A stretch of 15,274 nt of DNA from Neisseriaceae bacterium. Its GTDB lineage: Bacteria > Pseudomonadota > Gammaproteobacteria > Burkholderiales > UBA11063. The notes under the pieces are model-generated. The model searched no databases, was not told the DNA's origin, and was given only the letters and a program-made list of their open reading frames with translations. The translations under genes were made by a program, and so were the position numbers. The stretch lies in the NCBI GenBank assembly GCA_947470205.1, contig CANISK010000011.1:1-15274 (forward strand). Reading direction: 5' to 3'. Shown here piece by piece: positions 82-15,274 of the stretch (the first letter of the stretch is position 1; each line of letters starts with the position of its first letter).

Positions 82-993
82 TTAAAAAATTTGATACCAT
101 GATTGGTTTTTATATACCCACGGTTTTTTAAGATATCTACTGTTTGGGTAATTTAATAACAATACCTCTTTAGTTTCGTTGGATAGCTTTATGTTACCAA
201 GTTTATCATATGCCACTATTTCTATCGCTAATGATTCTTCAACAAAACTTGTGGTGCTGTAATTGGTAATAATTTCATTGGCATGATTGATTGATGCGAT
301 GTATTCATTCATTACCATGTAATAATGTGTTTTTATAATTTCACTTTTAGCTAAATCTTCAATGATTTGGTTTATAAGCATTTTAGCATCTGGAGTATAT
401 TTTGAATTTGGGTAAATGGTGATGAGATCGGTAAATATCTTATGTGCTTCTTTGAGGTTGGATACTTCAAGTTCACTTGGGTCTTGTTTGGTGTATTTAT
501 CAAAAAATCCATCACTATGCTGATAATTAATATACCCTTTAAGGTATAGTGCATAGTCCATATTTGTACTGGTACTGTATGTGGTGATAAAATCATCCAA
601 ACTACTAATTGCACTTTGGTAGTTATCATATTCATAATAGGCATATGCGATATCCAATAACCCTTGTTGTGCATATATTCCATATGGGTATGTTGTTTCT
701 AATGCGTTATATAACTTAATTGATTTATCATATGTTTTGTTTTGTAGGGACTTTTGTGCTTCTGTGTATATTTCTGATGCGGATTTATTTTTAATGCCAA
801 GTGGGTCATCATCGGTTGCGCAGCTGATTAATAGAGGTGTAGATAGGGTAATTATTAGTAGAAGAGATACTGACGGTGCGATTGCCACGCTTCGATAAAT
901 CGAAGCTCGCAATGACGATGGCACCAAAAATGACAATGATATTCGCAATGATGATAGTATAAATGATAAGAGGAAATTAACTAATGATTTCAT
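82..993 (-). CDS. bamD: Outer membrane assembly lipoprotein BamD (with repeat-extended signal peptide)
   Basis: BamD is the essential lipoprotein partner of BamA in the complex that folds beta-barrel proteins into the outer membrane. The mature part (from about residue 68) shows tetratricopeptide-like helical pairs typical of BamD: a block around AEIYTEAQ-like SASEIYTEAQ, then NKTYDKSIKLYNALETTYPYG and DNYQSAISSLDDFITTYS, and later NSKYTPDAKML. The lipobox is LISC with the lipidated cysteine at residue 58, far later than the usual 18 to 25. The excess is explained by a 42-bp palindromic repeat (875-916) read in frame as residues 26-40. The ATG at 993 overlaps the end of metN by 17 nt and has no clear ribosome binding site, so translational coupling is likely. 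A GTG at 888 would give a short signal peptide but also lacks a binding site. The family assignment is firm; the true start is uncertain. Confidence 0.9.
   Translation of the reverse strand: MKSLVNFLLSFILSSLRISLSFLVPSSLRASIYRSVAIAPSVSLLLIITLSTPLLISCATDDDPLGIKNKSASEIYTEAQKSLQNKTYDKSIKLYNALETTYPYGIYAQQGLLDIAYAYYEYDNYQSAISSLDDFITTYSTSTNMDYALYLKGYINYQHSDGFFDKYTKQDPSELEVSNLKEAHKIFTDLITIYPNSKYTPDAKMLINQIIEDLAKSEIIKTHYYMVMNEYIASINHANEIITNYSTTSFVEESLAIEIVAYDKLGNIKLSNETKEVLLLNYPNSRYLKKPWVYKNQSWYQIF
875..916 (-). repeat. Family A palindromic repeat, copy 1, inside bamD
   Basis: This is a 42-bp hairpin element. Arms ATTGC/GCAAT enclose a perfect inner stem GCTTCGAT/ATCGAAGC. It is the same element as the intergenic copy at 5040-5081, differing at two positions that form one base pair. 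It lies wholly inside the bamD reading frame, and 42 bp is 14 codons, so the frame is kept. A partial relative of the same end (ATTCGCAATGATGA) lies next to it at 941-954. Confidence 0.8.
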
Positions 994-2002
994 AGTGTAT
1001 ATTGGAATTTTTCAAAAGAGTAAAAGCTTTGTTAACCTGATGGATATCTCCATTCATTTCAAGTAGTAATTGCCCAAACGGCATATATTTAATTCTACCC
1101 AATTCACCTTTTAATATACTAAATAATACCCCAGAATCTAATGATATTTTACTTAAAAATGGCTCAAAAGTCGTCTGCCCAATAAATGATACCAATATAA
1201 GGTGGGTGTTGTCTGTTTTGTGGAATTTGTAAAAATCCATCACATCTGATAGGTACTTATCCACCTCTTCTTCTAAGATCAGTTTTCTGGTGATTTCTTT
1301 TTTAGGGTGCAATATGATATCCAGAGTTTTGCCTTGTTCTATGATAGAACCACCATCAATCACCGCTACTTTATCACATATTTTACGTACTACTTCTAGT
1401 TCATGGGTGATGATTACTATCGTGATGTTTAGTTGTTTGTTAATTGTGAGTAGTAGTTCCAAAATAGAGCTTGTGGTTTGGGTGTCTAGAGCTGAGGTTG
1501 CTTCATCACATAGTAATACGTGTGGGTTGGTTGCTAATGCTCTTGCAATTCCCACACGTTGTTTTTGTCCGCCTGAAAGTGCACTTGGATACTTATCTTT
1601 CATTTGATAAAGACCAACTAAGTGTAGTAATTCATTCACTCTTGTGTGAATTTCTTCTTTGGTATAAGTTTTGTGGAATATCATTGATAAAGCTATGTTA
1701 TCAAAAACTGTCTTTGAGGATAATAAATTAAACCCCTGAAATACCACACCGATTTGTTTACGGATTGACCGTAATTTACCATCAGTGCAATTGACAATAT
1801 TTACTCCATTAATATATATCTCTCCGCTATCTGGGGCGTCTAATAAATTAAACATTTTAAGTAAAGTGGATTTACCAGCACCAGATTTACCAATAATCCC
1901 AAAGATTTCACCTTGATGAACCGTGAGATTAATATTATGCAGTATTTTATGTTTTACCCCTTTAACCGAATATGATTTATTTAAATTTTTTATTTCTATC
2001 AT
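977..2002 (-). CDS. metN: Methionine ABC transporter ATP-binding protein MetN
   Basis: This is the ATPase of the MetNIQ methionine importer, acting at the inner face of the cytoplasmic membrane. It has Walker A GKSGAGKST (38-46), the Q loop (Gln89), signature LSGGQKQ (142-148), Walker B ending DEATSALD (166-173) and the switch His200. A C-terminal NIL domain (about 265-341) includes the FIGQ and GVLFSILKGE blocks; in this family it binds methionine and inhibits the transporter. The length of 341 aa matches E. coli MetN (343). It starts 12 nt after yajQ and its last codons overlap the bamD start. The usual partners metI (permease) and metQ (binding protein) are not next to it, so the permease must be encoded elsewhere or the ATPase serves another transporter. 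No good ribosome binding site is visible, again consistent with coupled translation. Confidence 0.9.
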   Translation of the reverse strand: MIEIKNLNKSYSVKGVKHKILHNINLTVHQGEIFGIIGKSGAGKSTLLKMFNLLDAPDSGEIYINGVNIVNCTDGKLRSIRKQIGVVFQGFNLLSSKTVFDNIALSMIFHKTYTKEEIHTRVNELLHLVGLYQMKDKYPSALSGGQKQRVGIARALATNPHVLLCDEATSALDTQTTSSILELLLTINKQLNITIVIITHELEVVRKICDKVAVIDGGSIIEQGKTLDIILHPKKEITRKLILEEEVDKYLSDVMDFYKFHKTDNTHLILVSFIGQTTFEPFLSKISLDSGVLFSILKGELGRIKYMPFGQLLLEMNGDIHQVNKAFTLLKNSNIHYEIIS

Positions 2003-2633: not shown

Positions 2634-2673
2634 GTGGGGTGAGATTGCCACCCCACAAAGGCTCGCAATGACT
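2634..2673 (-). repeat. Family A palindromic repeat, copy 2 (divergent)
   Basis: It keeps the family ends (GAGATTGCC and GGCTCGCAATGAC on the plus strand) but the central stem is replaced. GTGGGGT (2634-2640) pairs with ACCCCAC (2650-2656). It lies between the yajQ promoter and the terminator of the GH18 gene. Confidence 0.6.
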
Positions 2674-2756: not shown

Positions 2757-4421
2757 TTACTTATGTTTATGCTTATGTTGTGATTTTAATGTAGTTTGTG
2801 TTGATGGCACAACCAATAAAGGATACATGCCATTAGTGAACGCTCCTTGCGGTTCACATGTAGCAGAGATAGGTGGAAGATATGCAGGGTAAGTCATTTT
2901 ACCAGCTTCGCTACCACAATAATAATCACGACCAACACTCCAATACATTATTCCGTGAAAATATTGATATTTACCTCCATCATTATCAACCATAGTGCTT
3001 ACTTCTTGCTCTATAGAATCTAATATAGGTTGCATTTCATATCCCTTATCATTCGAATTCCATGGCTTTTTCTCTGTATATTTATTCGGATTAAATACAG
3101 TATCCATAAAACCAGCGCTAATATTTGCAACCTCTCCAAGTATTATATTAGTACCATTTGGTATGCAAGTTTTTCTTCTCAATGCTGGGATTTGGCTGTT
3201 CATTAAATCATTACATCTTTGTTGTGATTGCACTAATTTACTTAATGCTTCACCCATTGCAGATAAAAATTTAGGATTATTTTCACCAATACATTGATTC
3301 CAAGTTACCGTGGTTCCTTGGTTGCAAGCTGCGTCATCGGCATAATCTTGATTTCCAAAATTAATAGCCCCAGTCCCACTGTTATAATTTTGCAAGAAAA
3401 TAAAATTCACTTTACCAGTTCTTATTGCATCATCATATGCAGCGTGATCATCTGCATAGGGCTTAAGTGTTGCATCTCCCCCACCTGGTGTGAAAAGAAT
3501 TTGATTGCTGTTAAAGGGGTCTGATTTATTAACATAACCACCTCTACTAAATGGCTGTGGAGCAATTGCAACCTGTAAACCTGATGAACTAATTTCATCT
3601 ACCATGCCATCAATTAAATTTTTGTAATTAAAATTTGGTGGTAAATAACCTGCATCTTCAATGTCCAAATCAATTCCTTGTATTTGAGCAAAACCTTGGT
3701 TATTATAAGCTTTAACTTGAGCTATAACATTTTGCGCAATTGTTTTTCCTGTTGGGTCATCTTTAATAGCCTTTTGATCATTATCACTTAAAAATACACC
3801 ACCAACACTAAGAAATACAAGTGGTGCATCTGTTACCACACGATCTGATTTTAACCTTTGTAAAAAATTGCTTATATCTGGGTTTGTATTAATGTTGTCT
3901 AAGTTAGCAAATCCAATGATAAAAATATTGGGTTTAGTGTATCCATCTTTTTGAATACTACCTGCAATAGCAAATTCAGTAGGACTCACATATGCTGCTA
4001 GATATTTATTTTGTGGTTTTATATTTTTTATTGCGTGTACATTATAAGTGTTTACATTGCCATTTTGAGCGGTTACTTGATATTGTACGACTGCGTTATC
4101 TTTAAAGTAACTAACATTATTACATTTATTTAATTGTGGAATCTTTTGATCTGTTGCAGTAACTATTCCACCGTTCACTTCTATACAAACCTTAATCGGT
4201 ATTGATAAGTCTGTATCCCAAGGTAGACGAATAGGAAAATCATTTGTTGTGGGATTTGCAATTTGAGTATCATTAATCGAAAAAGATGTGATTTGGTTGT
4301 TGGATGAAGGTATATCTCCACCACCACCTCCACCGCCACCGCCACCGCCACCGCCACTACTGTTACATGATACTAAAAATATCATACAAAATAAAGATGT
4401 TATTTTTAAAAAACATTTCAT
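2757..4421 (-). CDS. GH18 chitinase-like surface lipoprotein
   Basis: This is a predicted exported lipoprotein of 554 aa with a glycoside hydrolase family 18 domain. The signal peptide ends in lipobox LVSC with Cys19. A run of 13 glycines (23-35) forms a linker, then a cadherin-like/DUF5018-type beta domain follows (about 43-131, ending in the typical YQVTAQNGNVNTYNVHAI). The GH18 barrel covers about 139-520. Family marks are SVGG (205-208), the catalytic strand QGIDLDIED (248-256) with acid Glu255 and Asp253, and a late MYWS. The first Asp of the usual DGxDxDxE is Gln248. The C-terminus ends HKHKHK. The ATG at 4421 has AAGG nine bases upstream. It is the second gene of a pair with the small lipoprotein (30-nt gap). 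The substrate is probably chitin or another GlcNAc polymer by family. A non-hydrolytic carbohydrate-binding role is possible. Confidence 0.85.
   Translation of the reverse strand: MKCFLKITSLFCMIFLVSCNSSGGGGGGGGGGGGGDIPSSNNQITSFSINDTQIANPTTNDFPIRLPWDTDLSIPIKVCIEVNGGIVTATDQKIPQLNKCNNVSYFKDNAVVQYQVTAQNGNVNTYNVHAIKNIKPQNKYLAAYVSPTEFAIAGSIQKDGYTKPNIFIIGFANLDNINTNPDISNFLQRLKSDRVVTDAPLVFLSVGGVFLSDNDQKAIKDDPTGKTIAQNVIAQVKAYNNQGFAQIQGIDLDIEDAGYLPPNFNYKNLIDGMVDEISSSGLQVAIAPQPFSRGGYVNKSDPFNSNQILFTPGGGDATLKPYADDHAAYDDAIRTGKVNFIFLQNYNSGTGAINFGNQDYADDAACNQGTTVTWNQCIGENNPKFLSAMGEALSKLVQSQQRCNDLMNSQIPALRRKTCIPNGTNIILGEVANISAGFMDTVFNPNKYTEKKPWNSNDKGYEMQPILDSIEQEVSTMVDNDGGKYQYFHGIMYWSVGRDYYCGSEAGKMTYPAYLPPISATCEPQGAFTNGMYPLLVVPSTQTTLKSQHKHKHK
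4317..4355 (-). repeat. Poly-glycine coding microsatellite
   Basis: Thirteen glycine codons lie just after the lipidated cysteine of the GH18 protein. Eight of them alternate as GGC GGT. The 6-bp period can slip in whole codons, so linker length could vary between strains without breaking the frame. Confidence 0.75.
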
Positions 4422-4451: not shown

Positions 4452-4973
4452 CTAATAACCAAGTAAGTTATTGACATGCACACATATATAATTATACTGC
4501 ATATCTGACACGCTATGTGGGTTAATTTTTATCCATATAGATGAATTAAAATTATATTTAGTGATTTGATTGCCGTATGTATCATATAAAATGGTGTTTG
4601 TTATGCGATATTGCTTTGTAATACAATTCATCTCCCAATTGCTAATTGCAAATTTATATTTTGGTTGATTTGTGTGGTAGGTAAAATTACTTACCAATAC
4701 CACAGTTTTTCTGTCTTGATATTTATATAGATTATTATCGATTAATTCTATACTATTATGGTTTATTTCATCTGAGGTTTGGTTATATTTGGTTATGCCA
4801 AGATAACGCCAATCACCATAACTACTGCCTGGAAGGGTGAATTTATAAACTTTTAACGGCTGAGGTTTGGTGTGTGATATATCTGATGGTGGGGTATAAC
4901 TAGAGCAACCATATAAAAATAATATAATGGTTATACCTAAAAGATAATTAACAATTTTATTTTTGCGAAACAT
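4452..4973 (-). CDS. Small lipoprotein, surface-adhesin E-like
   Basis: This is a 173-aa predicted lipoprotein of unproven function. The signal peptide MFRKNK plus a hydrophobic stretch ends in lipobox LYGC with Cys23. The mature part carries a pattern seen in small surface-adhesin E/CNP1-like lipoproteins: a tryptophan early (DWRYLG), a central block NWEMNCITKQYRI, YDTYGNQI, then WIKINPHSV and a late cysteine in YNYICVHV. The two cysteines of the mature region may form a disulphide. The start is uncertain: ATG 4973 gives the cleanest signal peptide, ATG 5000 adds nine residues, and neither has a Shine-Dalgarno sequence. It is transcribed just ahead of the GH18 lipoprotein, which suggests both act at the cell surface. 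The family name is a pattern match from memory, not a search result. Confidence 0.6.
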   Translation of the reverse strand: MFRKNKIVNYLLGITIILFLYGCSSYTPPSDISHTKPQPLKVYKFTLPGSSYGDWRYLGITKYNQTSDEINHNSIELIDNNLYKYQDRKTVVLVSNFTYHTNQPKYKFAISNWEMNCITKQYRITNTILYDTYGNQITKYNFNSSIWIKINPHSVSDMQYNYICVHVNNLLGY

Positions 4974-5015
4974 ATTAGATTTTTGTTGATTAGGTGTCAT
5001 TTTTGTTATATAAAA

Positions 5016-5024
5016 ATAATAGCA
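5016..5024 (-). promoter_or_regulatory. Possible extended -10 for the two-lipoprotein operon
   Basis: On the minus strand TGCTATTAT matches an extended -10 (TGnTATAAT-like). It would start a transcript about 9 nt before ATG 5000 and 36 nt before ATG 4973. There is no -35 match. The upstream side is a family A repeat, so any further promoter elements would lie inside the repeat. Confidence 0.3.
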
Positions 5025-5039
5025 GTTCAATTAATGAGC

Positions 5040-5081
5040 GGTGCGATTGCCACGCTTTGATAAATCAAAGCTCGCAATGAC
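5040..5081 (-). repeat. Family A palindromic repeat, copy 3
   Basis: A 42-bp hairpin with the same length and ends as the copy inside bamD. The inner stem is GCTTTGAT/ATCAAAGC instead of GCTTCGAT/ATCGAAGC, so one C-G pair became T-A on both arms. This compensatory change is evidence that the folded form matters or that the arms are kept in register. It sits between the HU gene and the small lipoprotein gene. Confidence 0.8.
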
Positions 5082-8349: not shown

Positions 8350-8390
8350 TTGAGATTGCGACTAATTTATAAATCAAAGCTCGCAATGAC
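8350..8390 (-). repeat. Family A palindromic repeat, copy 4 (degenerate)
   Basis: It keeps the outer arms, here ATTGCGA (8355-8361 region) with TCGCAAT (8381-8387 region), and the right arm ATCAAAGC. The left inner arm has decayed, so the central stem no longer folds. It lies 20 bp downstream of mutM and upstream of the barrel operon. Confidence 0.65.
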
Positions 8391-12216: not shown

Positions 12217-12260
12217 ATACTCTTCGTCATTCCGTGCTTGACACGGAATCTATATTTTAA
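12217..12260 (+). terminator. Hairpin repeat and probable terminator after the OPT gene
   Basis: The family B end ATACTCTTCGTC begins one base after the OPT stop codon and is joined directly to a different palindrome: ATTCCGTG (12229-12236), loop CTTGA, CACGGAAT (12242-12249). The sequence CTATATTTTAA follows, which is T-rich enough for a modest intrinsic terminator. This type of hairpin (CATTCCGTG...CACGGAAT) is a widely dispersed bacterial repeat, so it is both repeat and likely 3' end. Confidence 0.6.
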
Positions 12261-12331: not shown

Positions 12332-13321
12332 ATGGCAAATAAAATAACCCCTTCGCACGACCCGTTTGCAAGAAAATTTCTCACTGATATTGAGGTTGCA
12401 AAAGATTTTTTAACGATACATTTAGCTCCAGAAGTATTAGCAAAATGTGATTTAACTACCCTGAATATTGAATCAACTTCGTATATAGAAGATGATTTAA
12501 AGTTACATAACTCAGATGTTGTGTATCGTTTAGAGCTAAATGATCATGGTGGATATGCATATATTTATACATTAGTAGAGCATCAATCTACACCAGATAA
12601 GTTAATGCCATTTAGAATAATTCGTTACCAAATAGCAATTATTCAAAATCACATAGAGAAATATGGTGAAAAATTACCACTACCCATGGTTATACCGTTA
12701 GTGTTTTATAACGGAGTTAAATCACCGTACCCACACTCATCAAATATAACAGATTTATTTGATGATAAAGTATTGTATGACAGTGCTAAATTAGGCACTT
12801 TTAAATTAATTGATTTAACCACCATGGACACAAATGAAATATTTAAACATGGTAAAGTGGCTGTTTTAGAAATGCTACAAAAAGCGGTGCGAGTGAGAGA
12901 TTTTAAAGCAATTATTGGAACGATAATTGAAGTTTTACTATTAGGTAAAACTAGTGGACTCAAACAATCTTTGGTAGACCGTGGCATTTTATATTTATTT
13001 GGTGCACGTGATGTTGAAGAAATAAAACCTTTAATTGAAAAAATTAAACAACAAATTCCTGATTATGGAGAAGATATTATGAATTTTATTGATGCTATGA
13101 AACATGAGGGTAGACAAGAAGGTAGACAAGAAGGTAAACAAGAAGGTAAGCAAGAGGGTAAACAAGAGGGTAAACAAGAAGGTAAGCAAGAGGGTAAACA
13201 AGAAGCTGAACAAAAAATTGCCCAAGCATTAATTAAATTTGGGGTTGATGACTCAATAATTGCGAAGGCTACCCATTTAACTCAATCCCAAATAGAACAA
13301 ATTAAAAAATCAATAAATTGA
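12332..13321 (+). CDS. Rpn family recombination-promoting nuclease (PD-(D/E)XK)
   Basis: Rpn proteins are DNA endonucleases once classed as YhgA-like transposases; in E. coli they raise RecA-independent recombination. The N-terminal part has the family opening HDPFARKFLTDIEVAKDFL (9-27), the catalytic SDVVYRL (Asp62), LVEHQS (Glu83-x-Gln85) and MPFRIIRYQ (92-100). The C-terminal part carries eight tandem tetrapeptides EG(R/K)Q (259-290), predicted as a charged helix, then a short helical tail. The length of 329 aa is normal. The start ATG 12332 has no ribosome binding site. A TATGAT at 12315-12320 could make the message nearly leaderless. It is 51 nt upstream of the ABC exporter. The fold is inferred; such genes often occur in many copies in one genome. 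Confidence 0.88.
   Translation: MANKITPSHDPFARKFLTDIEVAKDFLTIHLAPEVLAKCDLTTLNIESTSYIEDDLKLHNSDVVYRLELNDHGGYAYIYTLVEHQSTPDKLMPFRIIRYQIAIIQNHIEKYGEKLPLPMVIPLVFYNGVKSPYPHSSNITDLFDDKVLYDSAKLGTFKLIDLTTMDTNEIFKHGKVAVLEMLQKAVRVRDFKAIIGTIIEVLLLGKTSGLKQSLVDRGILYLFGARDVEEIKPLIEKIKQQIPDYGEDIMNFIDAMKHEGRQEGRQEGKQEGKQEGKQEGKQEGKQEGKQEAEQKIAQALIKFGVDDSIIAKATHLTQSQIEQIKKSIN
13106..13201 (+). repeat. Coding 12-bp tandem repeat in the Rpn gene
   Basis: Eight units of 12 bp (pattern GARGGTARRCAA) encode EGRQ twice and EGKQ six times. Units differ only by silent or Arg/Lys changes. Because the period is a multiple of three, copy-number changes would lengthen or shorten the helix without a frameshift. Confidence 0.9.
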
Positions 13322-15133: not shown

Positions 15134-15154
15134 AAATGACAGTTATATGGCATG

Positions 15155-15175
15155 GATTCCCGCCTGCGCGGGAAT
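15155..15175 (+). repeat. GC-rich palindromic repeat after the ABC exporter
   Basis: ATTCCCGC (15156-15163) and GCGGGAAT (15168-15175) form a perfect 8-bp stem around CTGC. This sequence type is a common dispersed repeat in many bacteria and stands out from the AT-rich surroundings. It lies 22 bp after the exporter stop codon and could act as its transcript end, though no T run follows. Confidence 0.75.
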
Positions 15176-15274
15176 GACAAGTGTCTCTCGGGAATGACAA
15201 GTGTCTCTCGGGAATGACAAGTGTCTCTCGGGAATGACAAGTGTCTCTCGGGAATGACAAGTGTCTCTCGGGAA
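15171..15274 (+). repeat. 20-bp tandem repeat array, continuing past the window
   Basis: Five full identical units GGAATGACAAGTGTCTCTCG and the first four bases of a sixth are present, so the true copy number is unknown. The first unit starts inside the right arm of the preceding palindrome, so the first half of each unit (GGAATGAC) is the end of that element. No mismatches between units are seen, which points to recent expansion or active slippage. There are no unique spacers, so it is not CRISPR. Confidence 0.92.

Follow-up and report, generated by a model that had tools for sequence, protein, structure and literature searches.

A solo REP-like hairpin at the metN/bamD joint of a Neisseriaceae bacterium that may be read through as part of a two-part lipoprotein leader

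The window analysed here is the whole of a 15,274-nt stretch of DNA (contig CANISK010000011.1) from an assembly of 1.43 Mb in 197 contigs that is 87.88% complete, and toward one end of it the genes bamD and metN overlap by 17 bp (Table 1). BamD is essential in E. coli and Neisseria. The bamD ORF is intact and is 62% identical to its nearest homologues, the nearest relatives by name being Burkholderiales/Neisseriaceae MAGs; P0001 is found on two contigs, which gives some support against misassembly, though these are perhaps two assemblies of one sample. Elsewhere in the window, 13 glycine codons (4318-4359), a possible slippage site, directly follow the lipobox region of a GH18-like lipoprotein gene (2757-4421), and in a Transposase_31 (YhgA-like) gene a 12-bp tandem repeat (13088-13237) encodes an array of (K/R)QEG units close to the C-terminus.

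Table 1. Genes, repeat copies and candidate start codons (SD, Shine-Dalgarno energy; fold, predicted local 75-nt fold)
Feature	Position	Strand	Details
bamD, longest ORF, 303 aa	82..993	-	YfiO E 1.3e-46; single close match in the genome
Hydrophobic stretch and lipobox LISC with Cys58	820..873	-	no ATG/GTG/TTG codon in frame
REP-like hairpin, solo copy	875..916	-	40/42 identity to 5040-5081; covariance model 64.5 bits at 880-916
60-nt stretch from metN stop to repeat	917..976	-	absent from the leaders of relatives
Partial direct repeat of the element's 5' end	936-954	-	
metN (ABC_tran and NIL domains)	977..2002	-	overlaps bamD ORF by 17 bp
Short-stem copy, intergenic	2643..2672	-	covariance model 32.4 bits
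Second 42-bp copy, intergenic	5040..5081	-	9 nt upstream of Adhesin_E ORF (4452-5030)
Third copy, diverged, intergenic	8354..8390	-	covariance model 52.1 bits
ATG, likeliest start	991..993	-	SD +2.2; fold -1.0
TTG	948	-	SD +2.8; fold -4.9
TTG	936	-	SD +0.1; fold -5.3
TTG	927	-	SD +0.1; fold -14.5
GTG	924	-	SD +1.5; fold -16.0
TTG inside hairpin, alternative start	910..912	-	SD -2.8; fold -22.4
GTG inside hairpin, alternative start	886..888	-	SD +0.3; fold -17.6; leader without K/R

The hairpin repeat at 875-916 is confirmed as real and not a chance occurrence. A sequence-only reading of this DNA had placed the same repeat at 875-916 and 5040-5081, and so it proved: a repeat finder groups the two (95% over 43 nt), and the two mismatches between the 42-bp copies are the two sides of one compensating stem pair (C-G vs T-A). 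The bamD copy folds at -17.4 kcal/mol (z -2.93; equalled by 3 of 200 shuffles), and the fold of the 5040-5081 copy taken alone is less convincing (z -1.18; 28 of 200 shuffles as good). An Rfam search of the window gave no match. The further claim, that the repeat lies in frame and fills 14 codons ahead of the lipobox, also stands; counted from ATG 993 it begins with the third base of codon 26 and ends at the second base of codon 40, codes SSLRASIYRSVAIAP (codons 26-40, the outer two partly) and precedes Cys58 at 822-820. The 42-bp hairpin is open in all three bamD-sense frames. Both 42-bp copies have the same orientation and lie near the 5' end of a lipoprotein-like gene (bamD and the Adhesin_E ORF), and a TCATTRCGAATA motif is found further out from each.

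The genome has about 93 copies of this REP-like repeat, the bamD hairpin among them. The pattern GATTGC-N(4-30)-CTCGCAATGAC has 46 matches in the 1.43-Mb assembly and the control pattern, read backwards, has 0; one listing keeps 45 of the 46, as one match was dropped whose 20-nt flanks equal those of another. A covariance model built from 16 distinct 37-nt copies found at least 88 matches at E <= 1 after scoring 150 of the 2134 first-look candidates, and with six further pattern matches these make 94 rows, standing for 93 places because two rows (C113) are both strands of one palindrome. The repeat core measures 27-37 nt, or 42 bp with its end; the long form pairs as 5 + 7, interrupted by mismatches, around a loop of 4, and short forms have fewer inner pairs. 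Among the 16 aligned copies, 5 of the 7 inner-helix pairs have at least one copy with both bases changed, and such double changes fill 13 cells, where shuffles average 5.3 and none of 500 gets to 13; further pair types are no more frequent than in shuffles (8 vs 8.0; 344 of 500 shuffles). The outer helix is constant because the selecting pattern fixes those bases, as it also fixes those of the A-T and T-A first stem pairs, present in 16 of 16. Across 94 rows the base before GTC is A in 62, C in 22, T in 8 and G in 2, and the tail is TCA in 49 and CCA in 17 (66 of 94 between them); the bamD copy carries CGTC and has the tail GCA. There are 23 close pairs, 21 of them inverted in one order and 16 of these 45-50 nt apart, and the bamD copy is solo, outside any such pair. 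Of 23 genus genomes searched with a stricter pattern, 2 have matches, this one 38 and the other (G015) 4.

A RAYT was considered as the mover of the repeat and rejected, as the four Y1_Tnp matches lack repeat ends nearby (none has the probe TCATTGCRA/GCATTGCRA in its fetched stretch); two of them adjoin ORFs that we read as TnpB by eye. The window also holds a second hairpin type, which we take to be dRS3-like, at 15156-15178 (ATTCCCGC...GCGGGAATGAC, within the interval 15149-15274), with a 20-bp tandem repeat after it that extends as far as the contig end, and at 12226-12250 (GTCATTCCG...CGGAATC).

The repeat stays out of gene interiors in this genome. Judged against ORFs of at least 90 aa from a simple longest-ORF caller (100 aa in one listing), 5 of the 94 rows reach into an ORF, each time close to one of its ends, and the deepest overlap is that of the bamD copy, 77 nt from the ORF start. 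The other overlaps at 5' ends concern ybeY, whose start the repeat straddles, and a NuoL-like gene, where it lies 10 nt inside; those at 3' ends concern ispH, whose stop it straddles, and a type I specificity-subunit gene, which it meets 12 nt before the end, the names coming from Pfam (Proton_antipo, YbeY, LytB and Methylase_S). The NuoL-like gene and ybeY each have an ATG beyond the repeat (MNLFFLL and MINITL), so that these two copies (L020 1501-1529 and L138 701-737) are probably untranslated; they would give wrong N-terminal extensions in automatic annotation. At the 3' ends, the repeat supplies the ispH stop codon and the C-terminal tail of the specificity-subunit gene (L014 1501-1529; L028 1501-1532). 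The idea that the bamD copy is an insertion into the signal peptide is right only in part; none of the other copies is in a gene interior.

The repeat sits in a joint of roughly 100 bp between metN and bamD, and this gene order, yajQ-metN and then bamD, differs from that of the relatives. An rluD-like gene faces bamD in 5 of the 7 relatives' loci listed (L032, L033, L036, L041 and L048; identified by Pfam in L033 and by eye in the others), with L040 beginning near bamD and L050 showing another ORF there, and neither metN nor yajQ has a match in 30 relatives' bamD loci with flanks of about 1.5 kb. Conversely, yajQ precedes metN in 7 of the 8 relatives' metN loci listed (it was not seen in L094), and metN is followed directly by a lepA-like gene (L088, L089, L093), by a metI-type gene (L091, L094) or by others (L086, L087, L090), the neighbours in L088 and L091 having been checked by Pfam. 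With an rluD-like neighbour in relatives and metN here, bamD has been rejoined to new neighbours. This genome's own rluD-like gene is on contig C39, and an exact probe found no end of the repeat element near it in a 3966-bp stretch. The repeat lies at the joint of the changed gene order, and nothing in the analysis points to it as the cause of the change. A metI remnant was considered as the source of ATG 993 and rejected, since the metI-type genes of L091 and L094 begin differently (by eye).

Within the 60 nt between the metN stop and the repeat lies CATCATTGCGAATA, which directly repeats part of the element's 5' end and keeps its reading frame. It matches that end at 14 of 19 bases, a level reached by 8 of 5000 Markov sequences, and with probes of 10 to 20 bases the chance level is 16 to 117 of 5000. 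The covariance model gave 6.0 bits at 917-934 (E 8.2) and scored no copy; a degenerate tandem copy at 917-955 is therefore suggested by the direct repeat and unsupported by the model, and the additional piece that the sequence-only reading had suspected at 941-954 finds partial support. Additionally, TCATT[GA]CGAATA occurs at two places in the stretches of this genome that were scanned, one near each 42-bp copy, which hints at a shared longer unit. In simulations with the same make-up (a pyrimidine-rich strand), 71% of stretches keep the frame open for 19 codons, so that the first hydrophobic stretch encoded here is weak evidence.

How does this leader compare with those of relatives? Of the 22 genus relatives, 20 gave bamD loci (G001 and G007 gave no match), and in 18 of the 20 an ATG makes the lipobox Cys residue 20-27, the remaining two (L035 and L037) having GTG/TTG start candidates only. 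In the six nearest proteins (P0002-P0007) the Cys is residue 18-22, so by counting their Met aligns to residues 37-41 of the window's protein, which is the 3' edge of the hairpin. Read from ATG 993 the leader has 57 residues, more than twice the relatives' length, with 9-mer hydropathy peaks of 2.38 within residues 4-13 and 2.99 at 42-50 (relatives, 2.09 to 4.17, median 3.14) and the repeat-coded R29 and R34 between the two hydrophobic stretches. The second of these, with LISC, reads as an ordinary lipoprotein end. The surplus consists of the repeat and the 77 bases upstream of it (917-993); without the 42 bp, 43 residues, about twice the normal number, still precede the Cys, and the sequence-only reading's simple 42-bp insertion into an existing leader accordingly falls short. 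We consider it improbable that the repeat, alone or within an insert of roughly 111 bp bounded by CTATC, jumped into a MKSLVNFLLSFIL...STPLLISC leader. The length would then fit the relatives (Cys at residue 21 by codon counting), and insertions of REPs and of Rickettsia palindromic elements (RPEs) within reading frames are described in the available parts of PMC3733652 and PMC2229807, but the 42 bp alone are insufficient, the 5-base CTATC repeats (of the 956-960 and 842-846 types) were noticed by eye, the insert must bring a new hydrophobic stretch (the 2.99 peak) at the right place, and the other 93 rows all lie outside gene interiors. The nearest genus genomes are 52% identical in BamD, too distant for the events to be put in order; a scan of named genomes with the single protein gave no relative, and among the best 80 of 570 relatives from a scan with a ten-protein alignment the highest identity is 48%, so no close strain is among them.

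Where, then, does translation begin; upstream of the hairpin, within it or beyond it? Codons 41-57, from the hairpin to Cys58, contain no ATG, GTG or TTG, and with ordinary start codons some repeat DNA is therefore translated, the repeat codons touched numbering 5 from GTG 888, 13 from TTG 912 and 15 from ATG 993. This absent downstream start codon, missed in the sequence-only reading, is the best argument for translation of the repeat. For background we used 71 ATG starts of ORFs of at least 200 aa in fetched stretches of this genome, whose medians are -3.1 for Shine-Dalgarno energy and -4.9 for the 75-nt fold. ATG 993 lies in open mRNA and has no Shine-Dalgarno (about 3% of the 71 are at +2.2 or worse), with the metN stop (979-977) 11 nt after it, and the internal starts fail on structure, none of the 71 having a fold of -14 or below. 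In our judgement, translation probably begins at ATG 993. A start inside the hairpin, at TTG 912 or GTG 888, is a possibility that we rate clearly lower; the repeat would then give the start codon and n-region, and the sequence upstream would be untranslated. Such a start would make the Cys residue 31 (TTG 912) or 23 (GTG 888), nearer the relatives than 58, and the best Shine-Dalgarno energy among the seven belongs to TTG 912, whose leader has R29 and R34, but both codons lie in strong predicted folds that no background start matches, neither is ATG, and the GTG 888 leader lacks K/R, as do just 5 of the 88 homologue leaders that were readable (up to 35 residues) among the 119 homologues listed, four of the five being 13 residues long. 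GTG 888 had earlier been put forward as a possible start, rightly as a possibility, but its fold buries it in the hairpin. A start at another candidate is very unlikely by the same judgement, and we find it barely credible that the repeat is an untranslated 5' element with bamD starting after it at a rare codon (ATA/ATT near 850-855). The NuoL-like and ybeY copies offer a precedent for an untranslated repeat, and the available part of PMC3733652 allows that many REPs at ORF N-termini are extragenic, translation perhaps beginning beyond them; in bamD, by contrast, no ATG, GTG or TTG follows the repeat, and only about 10 residues would precede the Cys.

On balance we favour a solo REP-like hairpin at the metN/bamD joint that is read through from ATG 993 as part of a two-part leader. 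In this model, the hairpin would stand in place of bamD's own start codon and charged n-region, and ribosomes ending on metN would help a start at ATG 993, in the metN tail, and then read through the hairpin. The 57-residue leader would comprise MK, a hydrophobic stretch, a repeat-coded charged stretch, another hydrophobic stretch and the lipobox; export and lipidation by the second hydrophobic stretch with Cys58 are predicted from hydropathy, the leader would be cut off at Cys58 to leave mature BamD unchanged, and the repeat would be a tolerated passenger that happens to supply the n-region. We hold the whole model less firmly than the start at ATG 993, since its history and export steps are also inferred, and against it stand the missing Shine-Dalgarno, the overlong leader and an open upstream frame that proves little. 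More doubtful is a bolder proposal, in which an essential gene for outer-membrane assembly has co-opted a REP hairpin as its start region and draws from it either its start codon or the charged middle part of a bipartite lipoprotein leader; with the internal starts covered by the hairpin, BamD synthesis would then depend on ribosomes from metN.

Several known systems resemble parts of this arrangement. As described in the available part of PMC3733652, CGTC-tagged REPs, among them R. conorii RPE-4/RPE-6 and Neisseria dRS3, end in CGTC (or TGTC/CCTC), have a stem of 8 or 9 bp, a loop of 4 or 5 and a tail that is mostly CCA, and form mostly head-to-head pairs without a dedicated transposase. The repeat here is like them a short, mostly intergenic palindrome with A-T and T-A first stem pairs; its short tail is more often TCA than CCA, its close pairs are mostly inverted, in an order that may be the paper's HH, the Y1_Tnp search found no flanking transposase gene, and some copies lie at ORF ends. 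It differs from that description in its long form of 5 + 7 pairs and in that most rows carry AGTC, and since just 22 of 94 rows carry CGTC we do not firmly file it as a CGTC-tagged REP. The likeness to RPEs drawn in the sequence-only reading is sound as a likeness. RPE-4, -6 and -7 share the motif ATGAC (PMC3767692, in part), which ends the bamD repeat on the plus strand, and RPEs are present in 19 Rickettsia reading frames (PMC2229807, in part); here too a palindromic repeat is open in frame within a conserved gene. Unlike the 100-150 bp elements in gene bodies of Rickettsia, this is a 42-bp solo copy at a gene start in a betaproteobacterial host. The same source, as far as available, presents the signal peptide of Yersinia YPO1552 as partly formed by a repeat (PMC2229807). 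In both cases a mobile repeat would make part of a signal peptide, but YPO1552 is a proposed new exported protein, whereas bamD is an old single-copy gene without a start codon after the repeat. Long autotransporter signal sequences are laid out charged-hydrophobic-charged-hydrophobic. If ATG 993 is the start, the bamD leader, with its possible two-part layout, may be compared with the long signal sequences of autotransporters (PMC2805444, in part), differing in that it is partly repeat-derived and ends in a lipobox; no two-part leader is found in any of the six nearest bamD homologues. A search of open-licence literature by title found no REP in bamD or in a lipoprotein leader, and the repeat's own letters had no match on bacterial repeats there (title and abstract start). 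REPs at ORF N-termini and repeat-derived signal peptides are thus already known; what is special here is that no ordinary start codon lies downstream.

For REPs at ORF N-termini, a simple check of coding versus non-coding status follows; is any start codon left downstream of the repeat? Among the three 5'-overlapping copies in this genome, bamD alone fails this check. Translation of the repeat, if real, would mean that an essential gene can have its start region replaced by a short selfish hairpin, since few sequence constraints bear on a leader that is later removed.
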